DNA from: an uncultured Peptostreptococcaceae bacterium
GTDB lineage: Bacteria > Bacillota > Clostridia > Peptostreptococcales > Anaerovoracaceae
Reading direction: 5' to 3'
DNA length: 64,000 nucleotides
Assembly: GCA_949740445.1 (NCBI GenBank)
Contig: CATJIF010000041.1
Coordinates: 1 to 64,000, forward strand
Part shown: positions 8,012 to 17,095 of the stretch, one piece after another
Position numbering within the stretch: the stretch's first letter is position 1
Layout of the letters: the number at the start of each line of letters is the position of its first letter
Notes under the pieces: generated by a model
Database searches by the model: none
The model's input: only the letters and a program-made list of their open reading frames with translations
What the model was told of the DNA's origin: nothing
Translations under genes and position numbers: made by a program

Positions 8012-10066
8012 CTACTCCTCAGCCTCTGCAGCCTCGTCCGCTTCCTGCGCACTCTCCTCTGCCGGAGCCGCTTCTTCTGCCGCGGGACCATCCAGAGTTT
8101 CTTTGATGCTCAGGCTGATTCTCTTTCTCTCTTTGTCGATCTCCAGGATCTTTGCGCTGACTTCCTGACCGACAGAAATTTCGTCGGCGATGTTGGTTAC
8201 TCTCTTATAGGCAACCTCGGAAATGTGCACCAGGCCGTCGAGACCGGGCTCCAGTTCCACAAACGCACCATAATCCTTGATCTGCACTACCTTGCCGGTG
8301 ATCACCTGTCCGATTTCGTATTTCTCGTCGATGACAGACCACGGCTCGGGCATGTTCTGCTTTAAGCCCAAAGAGATCTTTCCCTTTTCCGCATTCATGG
8401 ACAGGATCTTTACGTTGATCTTGTCGCCGATGGAGAGGGCCTCCTGCGGATGCTTCAGCTTGCCCCAGGAAATCTCAGAAATGTGCAGCAGGCCATCGAG
8501 ACCTCCGATATCTACGAAAGCACCGTAGTCGGTAAATCTCATAACAACGCCTTCTACCACGTCGCCTACCGACAGCTTATCCCAGATTTCTGCGATCTTC
8601 TTTGCCTTTTCTTCTGCCAGGAACGCCTTGTGCGAGAAGACAGCCTTGTTTCTCTTCTGATCCACGCGGCTGACCTTTACCGGCAGAACCTTTCCGATAA
8701 ATTCATCTGCTTTTTCCACAAAGTGGTCGGACAGCTGGGACATGGGAATGAAGCCGGAAACTTCTTTATAGGTAGCGATAACGCCGCCCTTTACTTCCTT
8801 GACGATCTTAACATTGACTACTTCTTTATCATCCAAAGCTGCGTTAATTTCGTCCCAGTGCTCATTTACCTGCAGTTTTTTCTTGGACAGAAGGATATTT
8901 CCGTCGCCGTCATCGGTCTTGATGACCTTTGCCTGAATTTCATCTCCTTCTTTGAACAGCTCGGTCAGCTGACCTTCCTGCTCCAGAGCCATTTCCTCTT
9001 TGGGAATGATTCCGTCCTTTTTGCATCCCAGGTTGACTACTACGTAGTCATTGGTCACATGGACAATTTCTCCTGTAACAACTTCGCCCCTGCCCGGAAG
9101 TCTGAGGGATTTCTCAATCTCGTCCATCATGGCTTCCATTTCATTTGTTTCTTCCACCTGCGGCTGCAGATCGTTAGTGATAGCTTCACTCATAGCAGCA
9201 ATAACCTCCTTAATTATGCGTTCAGGTGTGGATGCACCTGCCGCAACACCTATTTTACAACATTTTTCGACTTCTTTCAATGGTAAATCCTCAATAATTT
9301 CAATAAAATAGGTGTTTTCGCAATACTTTTTTGAGATTTCATATAATTTTTTTGTATTGGAACTGTCCTTTCCTCCGATGACTACCATCAGATCCGAAGC
9401 TTTCGCCAGTTCCGCACAGCTGTTTTGCCGCTCCGATGTGGCGCTGCATATTGTATTGTGAATCTTCAAAATAGTATTGTTTTTCTTTAGTTCTTCCACC
9501 ACGCCGGCTAAAAGCTCTGCCCGGATGGTGGTCTGGCAGACGATGACCAGCTGCCTGCCGCAAACTTCCTGCGCCTGCGCCTGGGAATGCAGCACGATGG
9601 CCCTGTCGTCGGTCCATCCTTTAATGCCGATAACCTCCGGATGGGTTTCGTCCCCTACGATGACGACCGTATGCCCTTCGTCGGCAGCTTCCTTTGCCAG
9701 CTGCTGCACCCGCTTGACAAAGGGGCAGGTGGCATCTACGATCTCCAGCCCCCGTTCCTGTGCCATATCGTAAAATACCTTGGGCTCTCCGTGCGCCCTG
9801 ACGACCACGACAGCCCCCTGTTCGGCCTCCTGGGGCCTGTTGATGGCGGCAACGCCCTTTTCCAGAAGCTCGTCCGTAACGATTTTATTGTGGATCAGCG
9901 ACCCGCAGGTGTAGATGCGGCGACCGCTGTTCCGGTAGGCCTCCACCGCCTCCTCGGTGCGGTTGAGCGCTCTGGCCACGCCGAAGCAGAAGCCCGCATG
10001 CTCTGCCAGCGCAATCTGTATTTGCTTTCCATCCTTTTCGATAACTGTTACCGTTTCTTTTTCCAT
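8012..10066 (-). CDS. ispH: IspH (HMB-PP reductase) fused to ribosomal protein S1-like domains
   Basis: The N-terminal part (about 1-290) is 4-hydroxy-3-methylbut-2-enyl diphosphate reductase, the last MEP-pathway step to IPP and DMAPP, with the three [4Fe-4S] cysteines C27 (GFCFGV), C114 (DATCPFV) and C207 (NTICSAT) and the proton-relay Glu region. The C-terminal part (about 325-655) has four S1 RNA-binding repeats, two of them strongly canonical (TDYGAFVDIGGLDGLLHIS and KDYGAFVELEPGLDGLVHIS). This fusion is a recognised clostridial gene form. The acidic Glu/Ala tail is low complexity. It overlaps rarA by 19 bases. Confidence 0.96.
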   Translation of the reverse strand: MEKETVTVIEKDGKQIQIALAEHAGFCFGVARALNRTEEAVEAYRNSGRRIYTCGSLIHNKIVTDELLEKGVAAINRPQEAEQGAVVVVRAHGEPKVFYDMAQERGLEIVDATCPFVKRVQQLAKEAADEGHTVVIVGDETHPEVIGIKGWTDDRAIVLHSQAQAQEVCGRQLVIVCQTTIRAELLAGVVEELKKNNTILKIHNTICSATSERQNSCAELAKASDLMVVIGGKDSSNTKKLYEISKKYCENTYFIEIIEDLPLKEVEKCCKIGVAAGASTPERIIKEVIAAMSEAITNDLQPQVEETNEMEAMMDEIEKSLRLPGRGEVVTGEIVHVTNDYVVVNLGCKKDGIIPKEEMALEQEGQLTELFKEGDEIQAKVIKTDDGDGNILLSKKKLQVNEHWDEINAALDDKEVVNVKIVKEVKGGVIATYKEVSGFIPMSQLSDHFVEKADEFIGKVLPVKVSRVDQKRNKAVFSHKAFLAEEKAKKIAEIWDKLSVGDVVEGVVMRFTDYGAFVDIGGLDGLLHISEISWGKLKHPQEALSIGDKINVKILSMNAEKGKISLGLKQNMPEPWSVIDEKYEIGQVITGKVVQIKDYGAFVELEPGLDGLVHISEVAYKRVTNIADEISVGQEVSAKILEIDKERKRISLSIKETLDGPAAEEAAPAEESAQEADEAAEAEE

Positions 10067-12047: not shown

Positions 12048-12141
12048 TTTAAAATCTCCTTTCCCGGACATTTCAAAATATGAGGGCCGCGCGCAAAGTA
12101 TGACAAAAAAATTATATCCTGTTTGCCCGCGTTTGGCAAGT

Positions 12142-12171
12142 GCATGAAATTCGCGGTTTTATTCCATAATA
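12142..12171 (+). promoter_or_regulatory. Possible forespore sigma-G/F type promoter for the germination genes
   Basis: GCATG (12142-12146) and CATAATA (12165-12171) are 18 bases apart, resembling the -35/-10 pair recognised by forespore sigma-G. The position, about 40 bases before the gerA-type start, and the gene content support it. The match is short, so this is an inference. Confidence 0.45.
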
Positions 12172-12213
12172 TGAGATGAAAGCAAAGCGAATTCCATCAG
12201 CAAAGGAGTATTT

Positions 12214-14334
12214 ATGAATCAGACCCCATCGACGATCAAAGAGCGTCTGTCCGACTCTCTGGACGAAAATTTAAATCGCTTTCACTGCGTATTTCAAGAC
12301 GATACCACCATCAAATTCCGCCTGATGGTCTGCGGAGCCGGGCACCGGCAGATGGCAGTGATCTTTGCCGACGGCATGATCAACAACGTGTTAATCAATG
12401 AACATATCATCGAGCCTCTGCTGTGCTGGCACGAAGCGCTGCCCGAAAACCAGTGCGCCTCGTTTGTCCGCCGCCGGATTCTCTTTTCCAACGAAATCAG
12501 CGAAGCCTCGCAGACCGATGGCCTGATTACGGAAATCCTCTCCGGAAATACGGTACTTCTGATCGACGGCGAAGCCTCTGCGCTCGTGCTATCTACCCGC
12601 GGCTACATGACGCGCTCCATCTCCGAGCCTCCGGCGGAAAAGGTATTGCAGGGCCCGCGGGAGGGCTTTACCGAAGCGCTTCTCTTTAATCTCTCCATGC
12701 TGCGACGCAAGCTGTGCAGCCCCAATCTACGCTTTCGCTTCCGGCGCGTAGGAAAGCAGAGCAACACCATGGTCGCCCTTGCCTACATGGATGGAATTGC
12801 CGATCCCGGCGTGGTAGAGGAAGTCAGCCAGAGGCTTTCCCGCATCGACATCGACGGCATATTAGATGCCAACTACATTGAGGAGCTCATCAAGGATGCC
12901 CCCTGGTCTCCCTTCAAGACCATCGGCTCCACCGAGCGGCCGGACATTGTAGCCGCCAAGCTTTTGGAAGGCCGCGTGGCTATTTTGGTCGACGGCACGC
13001 CGGTGGTTCTGACCGCTCCTTTTTTTCTGCTGGAATACTTTCAGAGCAACGACGATTATTACAGCAACTTTTATATGGGAACCTTCGGCCGCTGGCTGCG
13101 CATTTTAGGCTTTTTCAGCACCATCAGCCTGCCCGCCATCTTTTTAGGGCTGTTTACGCTCCACCAAGAGCTTCTGCCCACGCGGTTTTTGTTAAACCTG
13201 ACCGCTGCCAGAGAGAACCTGCCCTTTCCCACGTTCCTGGAAATGCTGATTCTGATTTTAGGGTTTGAGCTGATCCGCGAGGGAGGCGCCAAGGCTCCTG
13301 CCAATTTCGGCCAGACGTTGGGCATCGTAGGCGGCCTAGTGCTGGGGCAGGCTGCCGTCGAAGCCCGGCTCGTCAGCATCCCGGTTGTAATCATCATCGC
13401 CTTTACGGGCATTACCGGCCTGATGATTCCGCAGCTGAAAAGCCCTGTTATCCTGTTTCGCCTGCTGTTTCTGGTGTTAGCCTCCATCTGGGGAATCCCT
13501 GGCTATCTCTGTGGCATATTCTTTCTTTTGCTGTACCTGTCATCATTGCAGAGTTTTTCCATCCCCTATACCTCTGCTCTCTCCTCCGACCGGCAGGCGC
13601 TGCTTCAAGATACGCTGTTCCGCTCGCCCTGGTTTTTCATGCGCCGGCGGCCCGATTACATTGCGCCGGTCAACCGCCGCCGCCAGAGCGGCCCCCAGCA
13701 AAAGAGCAGGCTCCTCTGTCTGCTGCCCCTGCTGCTTTTCCTGTGCAGCGCCTCGGGATGCTCTGCGGCAAAGGAGATCAACGATGTCCAGATTGTCAGC
13801 GGCCTCTGCGTGTATTCCTCGCCGCAGGAAAACAGCCGCTTTATCGTCTACGCGCAGGTTCCAGAAACCAGGGAAGGCGCTGAAGGGTCGCAGAACATCC
13901 GTGGCGCAGGCCCTACCTTCGCCGCTGCTGTCGAGGATTGCCGCAGCAATGCGGAAAAAGATATTTACTGGAATCACGCGAAAAGCATCGCCTTAGAAGA
14001 AGGGCTGCCGCTTTCGCAGCTCCAGGAAATCGTCCTCTACGTTATGGAACACCGGGAAATGCGCATCGCCTCCGACCTGCTTTTGTTCCGTCCCGCCTCG
14101 GAGGGCGAACCGCAGTTTCAGCATCTGAAATTGCAGGAAATGCTGCTGTCCGACGAAGCAGAACAGCTGATTCCCAGCAAAAAAGTCTATCAGCTGTTTC
14201 ACGAACTGTGTGCGGGCGATGTGCAGATCAAACTTCCCCTGCTGACGGAACAGCCGGATGGCAGCCTGCTTGCCACCGGCGTAGTCCTTCTCCCCGCCGG
14301 GGACGTGCCGCTTTTGCAGGAAGCGCTTCGCTGA
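12214..14334 (+). CDS. Spore germinant receptor GerA subunit fused to a truncated GerC domain
   Basis: Residues 1-490 are a GerA (A-subunit) germinant-receptor protein: soluble N-terminal domain, then membrane segments from about 295 to 450 with family motifs (PAIFLGLFTLHQELLPT, FELIREGGAKAP, GIVGGLVLGQAAVEARLVS). Residues 499-516 form a second hydrophobic leader ending in SASGC, and 517-706 match the first domain of GerC lipoproteins (KEINDVQIVSGLCVY, ATGVVLLP). A normal GerC is about 370-400 residues, so its domains 2 and 3 are missing. The start has AAAGGAG seven bases upstream. The gene ends 46 bases before gerB. The fused protein probably sits in the inner spore membrane. Confidence 0.9.
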   Translation: MNQTPSTIKERLSDSLDENLNRFHCVFQDDTTIKFRLMVCGAGHRQMAVIFADGMINNVLINEHIIEPLLCWHEALPENQCASFVRRRILFSNEISEASQTDGLITEILSGNTVLLIDGEASALVLSTRGYMTRSISEPPAEKVLQGPREGFTEALLFNLSMLRRKLCSPNLRFRFRRVGKQSNTMVALAYMDGIADPGVVEEVSQRLSRIDIDGILDANYIEELIKDAPWSPFKTIGSTERPDIVAAKLLEGRVAILVDGTPVVLTAPFFLLEYFQSNDDYYSNFYMGTFGRWLRILGFFSTISLPAIFLGLFTLHQELLPTRFLLNLTAARENLPFPTFLEMLILILGFELIREGGAKAPANFGQTLGIVGGLVLGQAAVEARLVSIPVVIIIAFTGITGLMIPQLKSPVILFRLLFLVLASIWGIPGYLCGIFFLLLYLSSLQSFSIPYTSALSSDRQALLQDTLFRSPWFFMRRRPDYIAPVNRRRQSGPQQKSRLLCLLPLLLFLCSASGCSAAKEINDVQIVSGLCVYSSPQENSRFIVYAQVPETREGAEGSQNIRGAGPTFAAAVEDCRSNAEKDIYWNHAKSIALEEGLPLSQLQEIVLYVMEHREMRIASDLLLFRPASEGEPQFQHLKLQEMLLSDEAEQLIPSKKVYQLFHELCAGDVQIKLPLLTEQPDGSLLATGVVLLPAGDVPLLQEALR

Positions 14335-14380
14335 GATCCACCCCATCCGCATGTTACACCGCATTGGAAAGGAGATTTTT

Positions 14381-15310
14381 ATGCCATCCACCCCATCGCA
14401 ACCCTCGCGGAAAAAGGAGTACGCATTTTTTCTTTCTTTTTCCGTGTTTACCGGCACATTTTTCTTTTTAGGAATCTACATTCCGCTGCAGCGAACGCTC
14501 TGGCTTTCGCTTCTGGCAGGAGGCATCGCTGCTGCCCTGTTTCTTACGCTCCTGCTTCGCCTCCGCGCTTCCCTTCAGGGCCATCCGCTGCTGGGCAGGC
14601 TGCTTGCGCTGATATCTCTCGCCTACGGCGGAATCAGCCTCTACGCCTTTTTTGTCTTTTGCAGTCACTGCATTTTTCCCGGCCATTCCTTTTTCTTTTT
14701 TCCCGTCTGCTTTCTCCTTCTAACCGCCTACGGCGCGGAAAAAGGGTTGTATGCGCTGGAGCGAACCTCTAAATTTACTTCGGTGGCTGTTGCTGTGCTT
14801 TTGGTTCTCACCATCGCCTCCACGCTGCAAAAGATGTGGGATCAGCGGGAATTTATCGGAAAAACCGCGGCCCTGCTGCTGGATATCGAGGCTTCTTCGT
14901 TCGCTGTCCAAACTATGCTGATTACCGTTGTGCTCCTGTGGCAGGCTCTTATCCTCTTTCACGCTGCTGACGACGGATGCCGGGCCCCGCAGCTTTTGAG
15001 CTCCATTCGCCGCGCCCTGCTGCCTTCCATTCTTTTTTCTTCCGCTTTGCACCTGTGTGCAGCGGCGGCCCTGGGTGCCTACAGCTTTGAATTTCTCACC
15101 TATCCGGTCTACGATATGCTGTCGCTTCCCGGATATGCCGAATATCTGGACCGGACGGAATTTCTCATGCTGATCGCTTTCTTGTTCTGCGAAAGCTGCA
15201 AAACTGTGGTTATGCTCCGGGCGGGAAGAAAGCTATTTTTCCGGCAGGAGGCAACAGACGAACTCGGTTGCCTTTTTGCCCAAAGAAGCGAGCATGAAGT
15301 GCAAAGCTGA
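14381..15310 (+). CDS. GerB-family germinant receptor permease subunit
   Basis: Multispanning member of the amino acid/polyamine/organocation superfamily that serves as B-subunit of germinant receptors, thought to bind or pass the germinant signal. I use the ATG at 14381 (309 residues), preceded by AAAGGAGA. Eight or more hydrophobic helices are visible, and AYSFEFLTYPVYDMLSLPGYAEYLDRTEFLML matches, in shorter segments, the conserved GerB region near helix 8. It is shorter than the usual 360 residues and lacks part of the C-terminal helices. Downstream of the GerA-GerC fusion, so the pair may form a complete minimal receptor. Confidence 0.85.
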   Translation: MPSTPSQPSRKKEYAFFLSFSVFTGTFFFLGIYIPLQRTLWLSLLAGGIAAALFLTLLLRLRASLQGHPLLGRLLALISLAYGGISLYAFFVFCSHCIFPGHSFFFFPVCFLLLTAYGAEKGLYALERTSKFTSVAVAVLLVLTIASTLQKMWDQREFIGKTAALLLDIEASSFAVQTMLITVVLLWQALILFHAADDGCRAPQLLSSIRRALLPSILFSSALHLCAAAALGAYSFEFLTYPVYDMLSLPGYAEYLDRTEFLMLIAFLFCESCKTVVMLRAGRKLFFRQEATDELGCLFAQRSEHEVQS

Positions 15311-15354
15311 TTTGCTGGCAAAACGGACAGCGCAGTGAGCCAGCGAACGGAGGT

Positions 15355-15503
15355 GGCAATCGCCGGGTACCAGAAACATGTCATCGGTTCCGCTAAGCTC
15401 TGCCTTCGTGCTTTGCACTCGCCAATCGCTAAGCTGCACGATGTCTGTTGTACCGCGGCTCTGCCTGCGTCTCACTTCGTTCGACTTGGCAATCGCCGGG
15501 TAC
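15355..15503. repeat. Non-coding repeat region bounded by 16-bp direct repeats
   Basis: GGCAATCGCCGGGTAC occurs at 15355-15370 and again, identical, at 15488-15503. Between them lie an imperfect inverted pair (GGTACCAGAAACATG against ATGTCTGTTGTACC), a second direct repeat CGCTAAGCT, repeated GCTCTGCC and a GTGC-TTT-GCAC hairpin. No convincing gene occupies 15311-15550. It may be an interspersed repeat of this genome; I cannot test copy number. Confidence 0.6.
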
Positions 15504-15510
15504 AACATGA

Positions 15511-15543
15511 AAAATCCGCACTGTGGTTGCACAATGCGGATTG
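15511..15543 (-). terminator. Intrinsic terminator of rny
   Basis: On the minus strand ATCCGCA...TGCGGAT with inner TGTG/CACA pairing is followed by five T, eight bases after the rny stop. Confidence 0.85.
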
Positions 15544-15550
15544 GTTCTTT

Positions 15551-17095
15551 CTATTTTGCATATTCTGTCGCCCGCGTTTCGCGAATGACATTGACTTTGA
15601 TCTGTCCCGGGTACTCCAGCTCGCTTTCGATTTTCTTGCTGATTTCCCTGGCAAGAAATACAATGGCATCGTCGGATACCTCATCCGGCTTTGCCAAAAT
15701 CCGGATTTCGCGCCCTGCCTGAATGGCGAAGGATTTGTCTACGCCTGGCGTGGTGTTTGCGATTTCCTCTAATTTTTGCAGGCGTTTGATGTAAGAATCC
15801 AGCGTTTCTCTTCTGGCTCCCGGTCTGGCGGCTGACAGCGCATCGGCAGCGGCAATCAGCACCGCCTCCATGCTCTTCGGCTCGTAATCGCCGTGGTGGG
15901 CAGCCATGCCGTTGATAACAACTTCGGATTCCTTGTACTTCCGCAGCAGGTCGATACCGATATCTACGTGGGTTCCTTCCACTTCGTGATCGACAGCTTT
16001 TCCTATGTCGTGAAGCAGTCCAGCCCTCTTGGCCAGCTTAACGTCGAGACCCAGCTCACCGGCCATCAGGCCGGCTAAGTGTGCAACTTCTACGGAATGT
16101 TTTAACACGTTTTGCCCGTAACTGGTACGGTAGCGCAGGCGCCCCAACAGTCGAATCAGTTCGGGATGCAGATTATGAATACCCACTTCGAAGGTGGCGG
16201 ATTCGCCCTCTTCTTTAATAATTGCATTAACCTCCCGCTGGGCCTTTTCCACCATTTCCTCAATGCGTGCGGGGTGGATGCGGCCGTCTACGATCAGTTT
16301 TTCCAAAGCCAGTCTTGCGACCTCTCTTCTGACCGGATCAAATCCGGAGAGGATGACGGCTTCTGGTGTATCGTCGATGATCAAATCAATTCCTGTCAGC
16401 GTTTCAATAGCCCGAATATTTCTTCCTTCTCTGCCGATAATTCTTCCCTTCATCTCGTCGTTGGGCAAGGGAACGACGGACACCGTCGTCTCGGCCACAT
16501 GGTCGGCAGCGCATCTCTGAATCGCTCCAGTAATGATTTCCTTCGCCTTCTTTTCTGCCTCCTCCTTGGCCTTTGCTTCGATATCCTTAATCATCAGGGA
16601 TGCTTCGTAGCGCACGTCCTTTTCTACGTTGGAAAGCAACAGCTGCTTGGCCTCTTCTTCGGTATAGCCGGAAATCCGCTCAAGCTCCTCCATCTGCTTT
16701 TCCAGAAAACCGTCCAGCTCGTGCTCCTTTTCGGAAATTCTCTGTTCTTTTTTTGTAATGCTTTCTTCTTTCTTCTCTAAATTTTCAATTTTTCGGTCAA
16801 CGGATTCTTCCTTTTGAATCAGACGCTTCTCCGATCTCTGGATTTCCGACCTCCGCTCGCGGATTTCGCGCTCCGCCTCGCTTCGCAGGCGATGCGCTTC
16901 TTCTTTAGCCTCTATCGTAATTTCCTTTTTGATCGTCTCAGATCGGTTTTCGGCATCGAGGATCATATTCTTTGCCATCTGCTCCGCGCTTCCAATGGTC
17001 TTTTCAGCGAAGTTTTTACGGCATATATATCCAATTAGCAGACCTACGGCCAAGGCTATCGCTCCTATTAAAAATTTAATAACAAACTCTAAAAT
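15551..17095 (-). CDS. rny: Ribonuclease Y
   Basis: Membrane-anchored endoribonuclease that initiates mRNA decay in Firmicutes. An N-terminal transmembrane helix ([18 protein letters not shown]), a long coiled coil rich in Glu/Lys/Arg, a KH domain ([15 protein letters not shown]) and an HD domain ([21 protein letters not shown]) are all present, ending in the conserved [10 protein letters not shown]. The start is odd: AGGAGG at 17110-17105 is followed in frame by no ATG, GTG or TTG, but by ATT at 17095, which would give 514 residues and place the membrane helix at the N-terminus as in homologues. The alternative is a GTG at 17149 without an obvious Shine-Dalgarno, adding 18 residues. Confidence 0.95.

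Follow-up and report, generated by a model that had tools for sequence, protein, structure and literature searches.

Introduction

In published models of GerA-type germinant receptors, the N-terminal domain and C-terminal tail of the A subunit face the spore core while the C subunits form a ring on the outer face, with one copy of each per protomer (PMC13170314, PMC11841064). Even for the model organism, the literature gives the role of the C subunit as unknown, and the B subunit GerAB has been modelled on an L-alanine transporter whose ligand-contacting residues lie on helices 1, 3, 6 and 8 (PMC8617281). No description of a receptor in which A and C are fused was found in the open-access literature searched. 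Here we analyse a locus in which GerA and the first domain of GerC are encoded in a single open reading frame, in a 64,000-nucleotide stretch (hereafter the window) from contig CATJIF010000041.1 of the uncultured Peptostreptococcaceae bacterium assembly GCA_949740445.1.

Architecture of the fused gene

The features of the locus, all on the forward (+) strand, are as follows; G002, G003 and G004 are genomes of the same genus, and G049 belongs to another genus of the family.

12141..12171, +: candidate sigma-G-like promoter (TGCATG, 18-nt spacer, CATAATA), with the start codon 42 nt downstream
12202..12208, +: AAAGGAG, ribosome-binding site preceding the fused gene, read from the sequence
12214..14334, +: gerA-gerC(domain 1) fused gene, 706 aa; uninterrupted open reading frame with Pfam domains, kept in G002, G003 and G004
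12289..13656, +: GerA subunit, residues 26-481, predicted core-side N-terminal domain plus membrane domain; PF03323, E 6e-159; N-terminal domain similar to GerK3A (6o59) and GerIA (9prb)
13711..13761, +: internal lipoprotein-type leader (residues 500-515) plus Cys516; Ser-Gly-Cys-Ser invariant in four species, Gly-Cys also in G049
13768..14241, +: GerC domain 1, residues 519-676, the sole GerC domain in the gene; PF25198, E 4e-12; GerC family profile similar to solved GerBC (3n54)
14368..14374, +: ribosome-binding site AAAGGAG of gerB, read from the sequence
14381..15310, +: gerB, encoding a shortened B subunit of 309 aa with 8 predicted transmembrane helices, the predicted germinant-binding subunit; TIGR00912, E 7e-5; AlphaFold model pLDDT 84.6

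The Pfam match of the GerA part covers nearly the whole PF03323 profile (positions 6-465 of 466, 530 bits), and profile positions 2-173 of 176 of PF25198 (Spore_GerAC_N) are aligned to residues 519-676. An Arg/Lys-rich linker lies between the GerA domain and the hydrophobic leader. The solved structures of GerK3A and GerIA match the GerA N-terminal domain in sequence and were also its best matches in a fold search, with TM 0.73-0.76 over the domain. A Foldseek search with the fused model left the GerC part unmatched, and the link to GerBC is one of sequence profile, 3n54 being matched by an aligned GerC-family profile that includes the GerC part of the window. The Ger(x)C lipoprotein family TIGR02887 aligned to residues 503-624 with 38.5 bits against a cut-off of 163.25, which is thus not reached. 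The predicted model of the fused chain is weak overall (pTM 0.43), so that the placement of the domains across the membrane is not established by the model.

The layout described in the sequence-only reading of this stretch, namely GerA, a second leader ending at C516 and then the first GerC domain alone, is borne out by the reading frame and by the Pfam domains. That reading had also argued that the missing GerC domains were not simply displaced, and this holds: gerB, which has its own AAAGGAG, begins at position 14381 at a distance of 46 nt from the stop, leaving no room for them. The possibility that they are encoded elsewhere was rejected, as PF05504 (the C-terminal part of GerC) found no match in the fused gene or anywhere in the genome of the window. 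Rfam gave no match near the ger locus.

Conservation in the genus

The same fusion is present in three of the four other genomes of the genus (~69% identity), with proteins of 702, 678 and at least 671 aa as counted from likely start codons; the fourth, an incomplete assembly, gave no match. Both complete fused relatives have GerC cut off at the same domain boundary as in the window, and no second GerC_N match was found in the fusion-bearing genomes. The gerB frame of G002 overlaps the stop of the fused gene by four bases. GerC domain 1 is under purifying selection, with pN of 0.18-0.32 against pS of 0.59-0.79 in the four species and pN well below pS in every pair, although pS is near saturation and the pN/pS ratios are therefore rough. 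The genus is known here from draft assemblies of uncultured bacteria only. Its two public relatives are metagenome assemblies, one of an uncultured Clostridia bacterium and one from roe deer rectum, the latter suggesting a gut habitat.

Candidate promoter and sporulation context

The candidate promoter scores 12/13, a value reached by 1 of 300 shuffles and by 3 of 638 window chunks, and a perfect CATAMTA -10 element (in the form CATACTA) lies upstream of the orthologues in G002, G003 and G004 and in three genomes of other genera (G012, G091, G142). SpoVA channel genes are present in the genome of the window. Apart from the fused chain, that genome encodes a single GerA-family protein, an orphan of 570 aa on another contig (L056:7243-8955; contig C82 of G000), in which an insert splits the GerA profile match. 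There is no gerB or gerC beside it, and it is perhaps SpoVAF.

GerB and the downstream region

GerB is about 300 aa long with 8 predicted helices across the family, compared with about 362 aa order-wide, the absent part being the last ~60 aa and a short loop. The AlphaFold model of the window's GerB has eight long helices, and in a fold search APC transporters (e.g. ApcT) rank first, with TMq up to 0.65 and every match at E >0.001. The TIGR00912 match has 22 bits, below the curated cut-off of 139.6, and PF03845 gave no match over cut-off in this GerB or in the genome. By analogy with the transporter used to model GerAB, the shortened GerB should retain all of the ligand-contact helices.

A strongly folding stretch (15230-15560, z -3.05) separates gerB from the convergent rny and carries the 17-nt sequence TGGCAATCGCCGGGTAC in two exact copies at a distance of 133 nt; the end of gerB, just before this stretch, differs from that of the congener.

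Distribution and origin of the fusion

Of the 198 family genomes, just 14, scattered over 9 of 92 genera, carry a GerC_N domain, a pattern of repeated loss of nutrient receptors. The receptor adjoins ispH-rpsA, rarA and a SPOR-domain gene in most of the 14, and this locus is common to fused (window, G002, G049) and separate (G012, G091, G142, G006) forms. The ispH-rpsA gene of the window (8012-10066) is a 684-aa frame with the appearance of an IspH-ribosomal protein S1 fusion, found in the same place in relatives.

Four states of the receptor genes occur among these genomes: a separate, full-length GerC (G012, G091, G142, G065 and G051), a separate GerC cut to domain 1 (G006, G017, G055 and G122), a fused chain whose GerC part is close to full length (G049), and a fused chain with truncated GerC (the window's genus). 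Since the fused chain of G049 has a much longer GerC part, and four genomes have the truncation without the fusion, fusion and truncation were separate steps; truncation of GerC arose several times. The sequence-only reading had treated the locus as a fusion with a cut C subunit, and both features are indeed present, but they go back to separate events, and the reduction of GerB was missed. It had also held that homologues with separate genes would speak against the fusion. Such homologues exist at the same locus but only in other genera, which makes the fusion a derived state rather than a false one.

A tree was built on rarA and ispH-rpsA, the genes neighbouring the receptor locus. It placed the window's genus with G012, G091 and G142, and G049 with G006. 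Constraining the fused genomes to group together lowered the log-likelihood by 43, and this topology was rejected (AU p = 0.0003). A single origin of the fusion is therefore rejected, and fusion occurred at least twice, unless genes were re-split or moved between lineages.

Wider sampling covered about 1,180 genomes from the order, class and phylum, some of them shared between samples. Among the matches listed (up to about 150 per list), a stop-free A-C junction occurs only in the window's genus and G049, so that rare fusions may exist elsewhere, and A and C stand in one frame with a single intervening stop in dozens of order, class and phylum members. Five further genomes with long open frames (G671, G555, G1005, G1120 and G1138) were rejected as fusions: the frames were merely extended from stop to stop, and wherever one of these genomes has both A and C, the two are separate. 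GerA proteins of 710-745 aa in two genera (g17 and g30) were also rejected, as the extension is hydrophobic and has no similarity to GerC. These GerA-family genes (L051:2939-5101, L052:6741-8873, L053:5339-7483 and L054:6361-8544) encode a C-terminal extension of ~240 aa with no Pfam match and adjoin spo0A-like and spoIVB-like genes, and represent another kind of GerA extension.

We propose that the fusion took place in situ in an ancestral gerA-gerC-gerB operon, in which A and C would have been adjacent and, as in many Clostridia, in a common frame divided by a single stop. Once this stop was lost, the chains would have been joined, and the C-terminal GerC domains would have been lost in a separate event.

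The internal leader

In all four species the site reads Ser-Gly-Cys-Ser, whereas 20 of the 22 leader columns ahead of it are variable; that all four site columns fall among the six invariant columns of 26 has a probability of about 0.001 if random. This invariance amid a variable leader speaks for the lipidation of Cys516, a modification that in Firmicutes is as a rule followed by cleavage. At -3, on the other hand, the window's genus has Ala, Phe or Cys instead of the customary Leu, and we consider it a toss-up whether the chain is cut before Cys516.

If it is cut, Cys516 would receive a diacylglyceryl group and signal peptidase II would cleave before it, leaving GerA with the leader as an additional C-terminal helix and GerC domain 1 anchored by its lipid, in an exact A:C ratio of 1:1. 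This fate of the chain, which we rate just short of even, is suggested by the invariant site within a variable leader, by the retention of Gly-Cys in the independently fused G049, and by the shortness of the hydrophobic stretch, which is like that of signal peptides. The loss of Leu at -3 may weaken recognition, however, and the literature searched yielded no earlier example of cleavage behind a polytopic domain. The same loosened consensus favours the alternative in which the leader is a permanent helix tying GerC domain 1 to GerA; a tethered GerC needs no lipid anchor, and the long hydrophobic region of GerKC has been suggested to be able to replace cleavage (PMC11841064). An uncut chain would leave the retention of Gly-Cys unexplained unless lipid is still added, and its chances, too, lie a little under one half. 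The fuller scheme of a membrane polyprotein, in which a channel subunit is inserted, an internal Cys is lipidated and signal peptidase II yields two subunits at exactly 1:1 from one gene, is put forward tentatively, as a proposal that may well not hold.

A probable reduced germinant receptor

We interpret the locus as a working, reduced GerA-type germinant receptor, probably the only one of the organism, made from two genes instead of three (probability about 0.75). GerB, with eight predicted helices and a putative APC fold, would bind the nutrient, and the GerA part would form an oligomeric cation channel with its N-terminal domain and C-terminal tail on the core side. The leader after GerA would cross the membrane, so that the basic linker lies inside and one GerC domain 1 per GerA copy is displayed on the outer face. 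A GerC leader fused to the tail of A fits the published topology, in which that tail is inside and the C ring outside. The sequence-only reading had suggested a reduced receptor with a fixed 1:1 stoichiometry. The reduction is well supported, a single chain containing A together with the first C domain, but the ratio is not new: ordinary receptors are already modelled as 1:1:1 (PMC11841064, PMC13170314), and the fusion would fix an existing ratio rather than create one.

Other explanations of the locus were weighed against this one. An error of sequencing or assembly that deleted a stop between two normal genes would agree with the separate genes of related genera and with the single in-frame stop at the A-C junction in many Clostridia. 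The fusion, however, is common to four independent assemblies, with the same GerC truncation boundary in all complete ones, and the stop-free junction in three congeners rules out a sequencing error; a stop concealed from residue 485 to 500, which the earlier reading had named as a refutation, is thereby excluded, and the chance of an artefact is negligible. Decay is a live concern, given the few family genomes that retain GerC_N, and the truncated GerC and short GerB could be steps towards loss in a family where most genomes have lost GerC and both subunits have been shortened repeatedly. On the other hand, purifying selection maintains the frame and domain 1 in four species between which synonymous change is near saturation, the promoter -10 element is conserved, and the domain-1 form recurs in four other genomes, so that we regard decay as unlikely. 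Less likely still is a SpoVAF-like accessory protein in place of a nutrient receptor: the GerA family does include orphan forms, one of them in this very genome, but here neither GerC domain 1 nor GerB is missing, and both are conserved at the one locus.

The C-terminal GerC domains were lost repeatedly in nature, each time with retention of domain 1, which suggests that domain 1 is what the receptor requires. Together with the independent second fusion, this pattern indicates how little of the receptor evolution must retain. That A was fused to C on two independent occasions lends support to the 1:1 pairing of A and C in the models and to the modelled topology, and the natural fusion and truncation offer a ready-made tool for probing the B. 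subtilis receptor, by means of a matching fusion or a C subunit consisting of domain 1 only.

Comparison with known systems

In Clostridium perfringens, GerKA and GerKC are cotranscribed (PMC5083711), which recalls the present arrangement, but they are separate proteins and gerKB is divergently transcribed. The A-C-B operons of related Clostridia (e.g. G012, G091, G312 and G559) share the gene order and, in G012 and G091, also the chromosomal neighbours; their A and C are separate and their GerC is full length. In G049, a single frame at the same locus encodes A and C as a chain of 854 aa; it differs in its independent origin and in a GerC part of approximately whole GerC length, the C-terminal domain of which is below the Pfam cut-off. 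Compared with the GerA-type receptors of B. subtilis (GerA, GerB and GerK) and B. cereus (GerI), the locus shows the same A subunit with a substrate-binding-protein-like N-terminal domain and a membrane domain, a B subunit that is putatively of APC type, a GerC domain 1 behind a lipoprotein-type leader and a forespore-type promoter, here predicted. It departs from them in having A and C in one open frame, a GerC without the C-terminal domains, and a GerB of 8 predicted helices instead of about 10.
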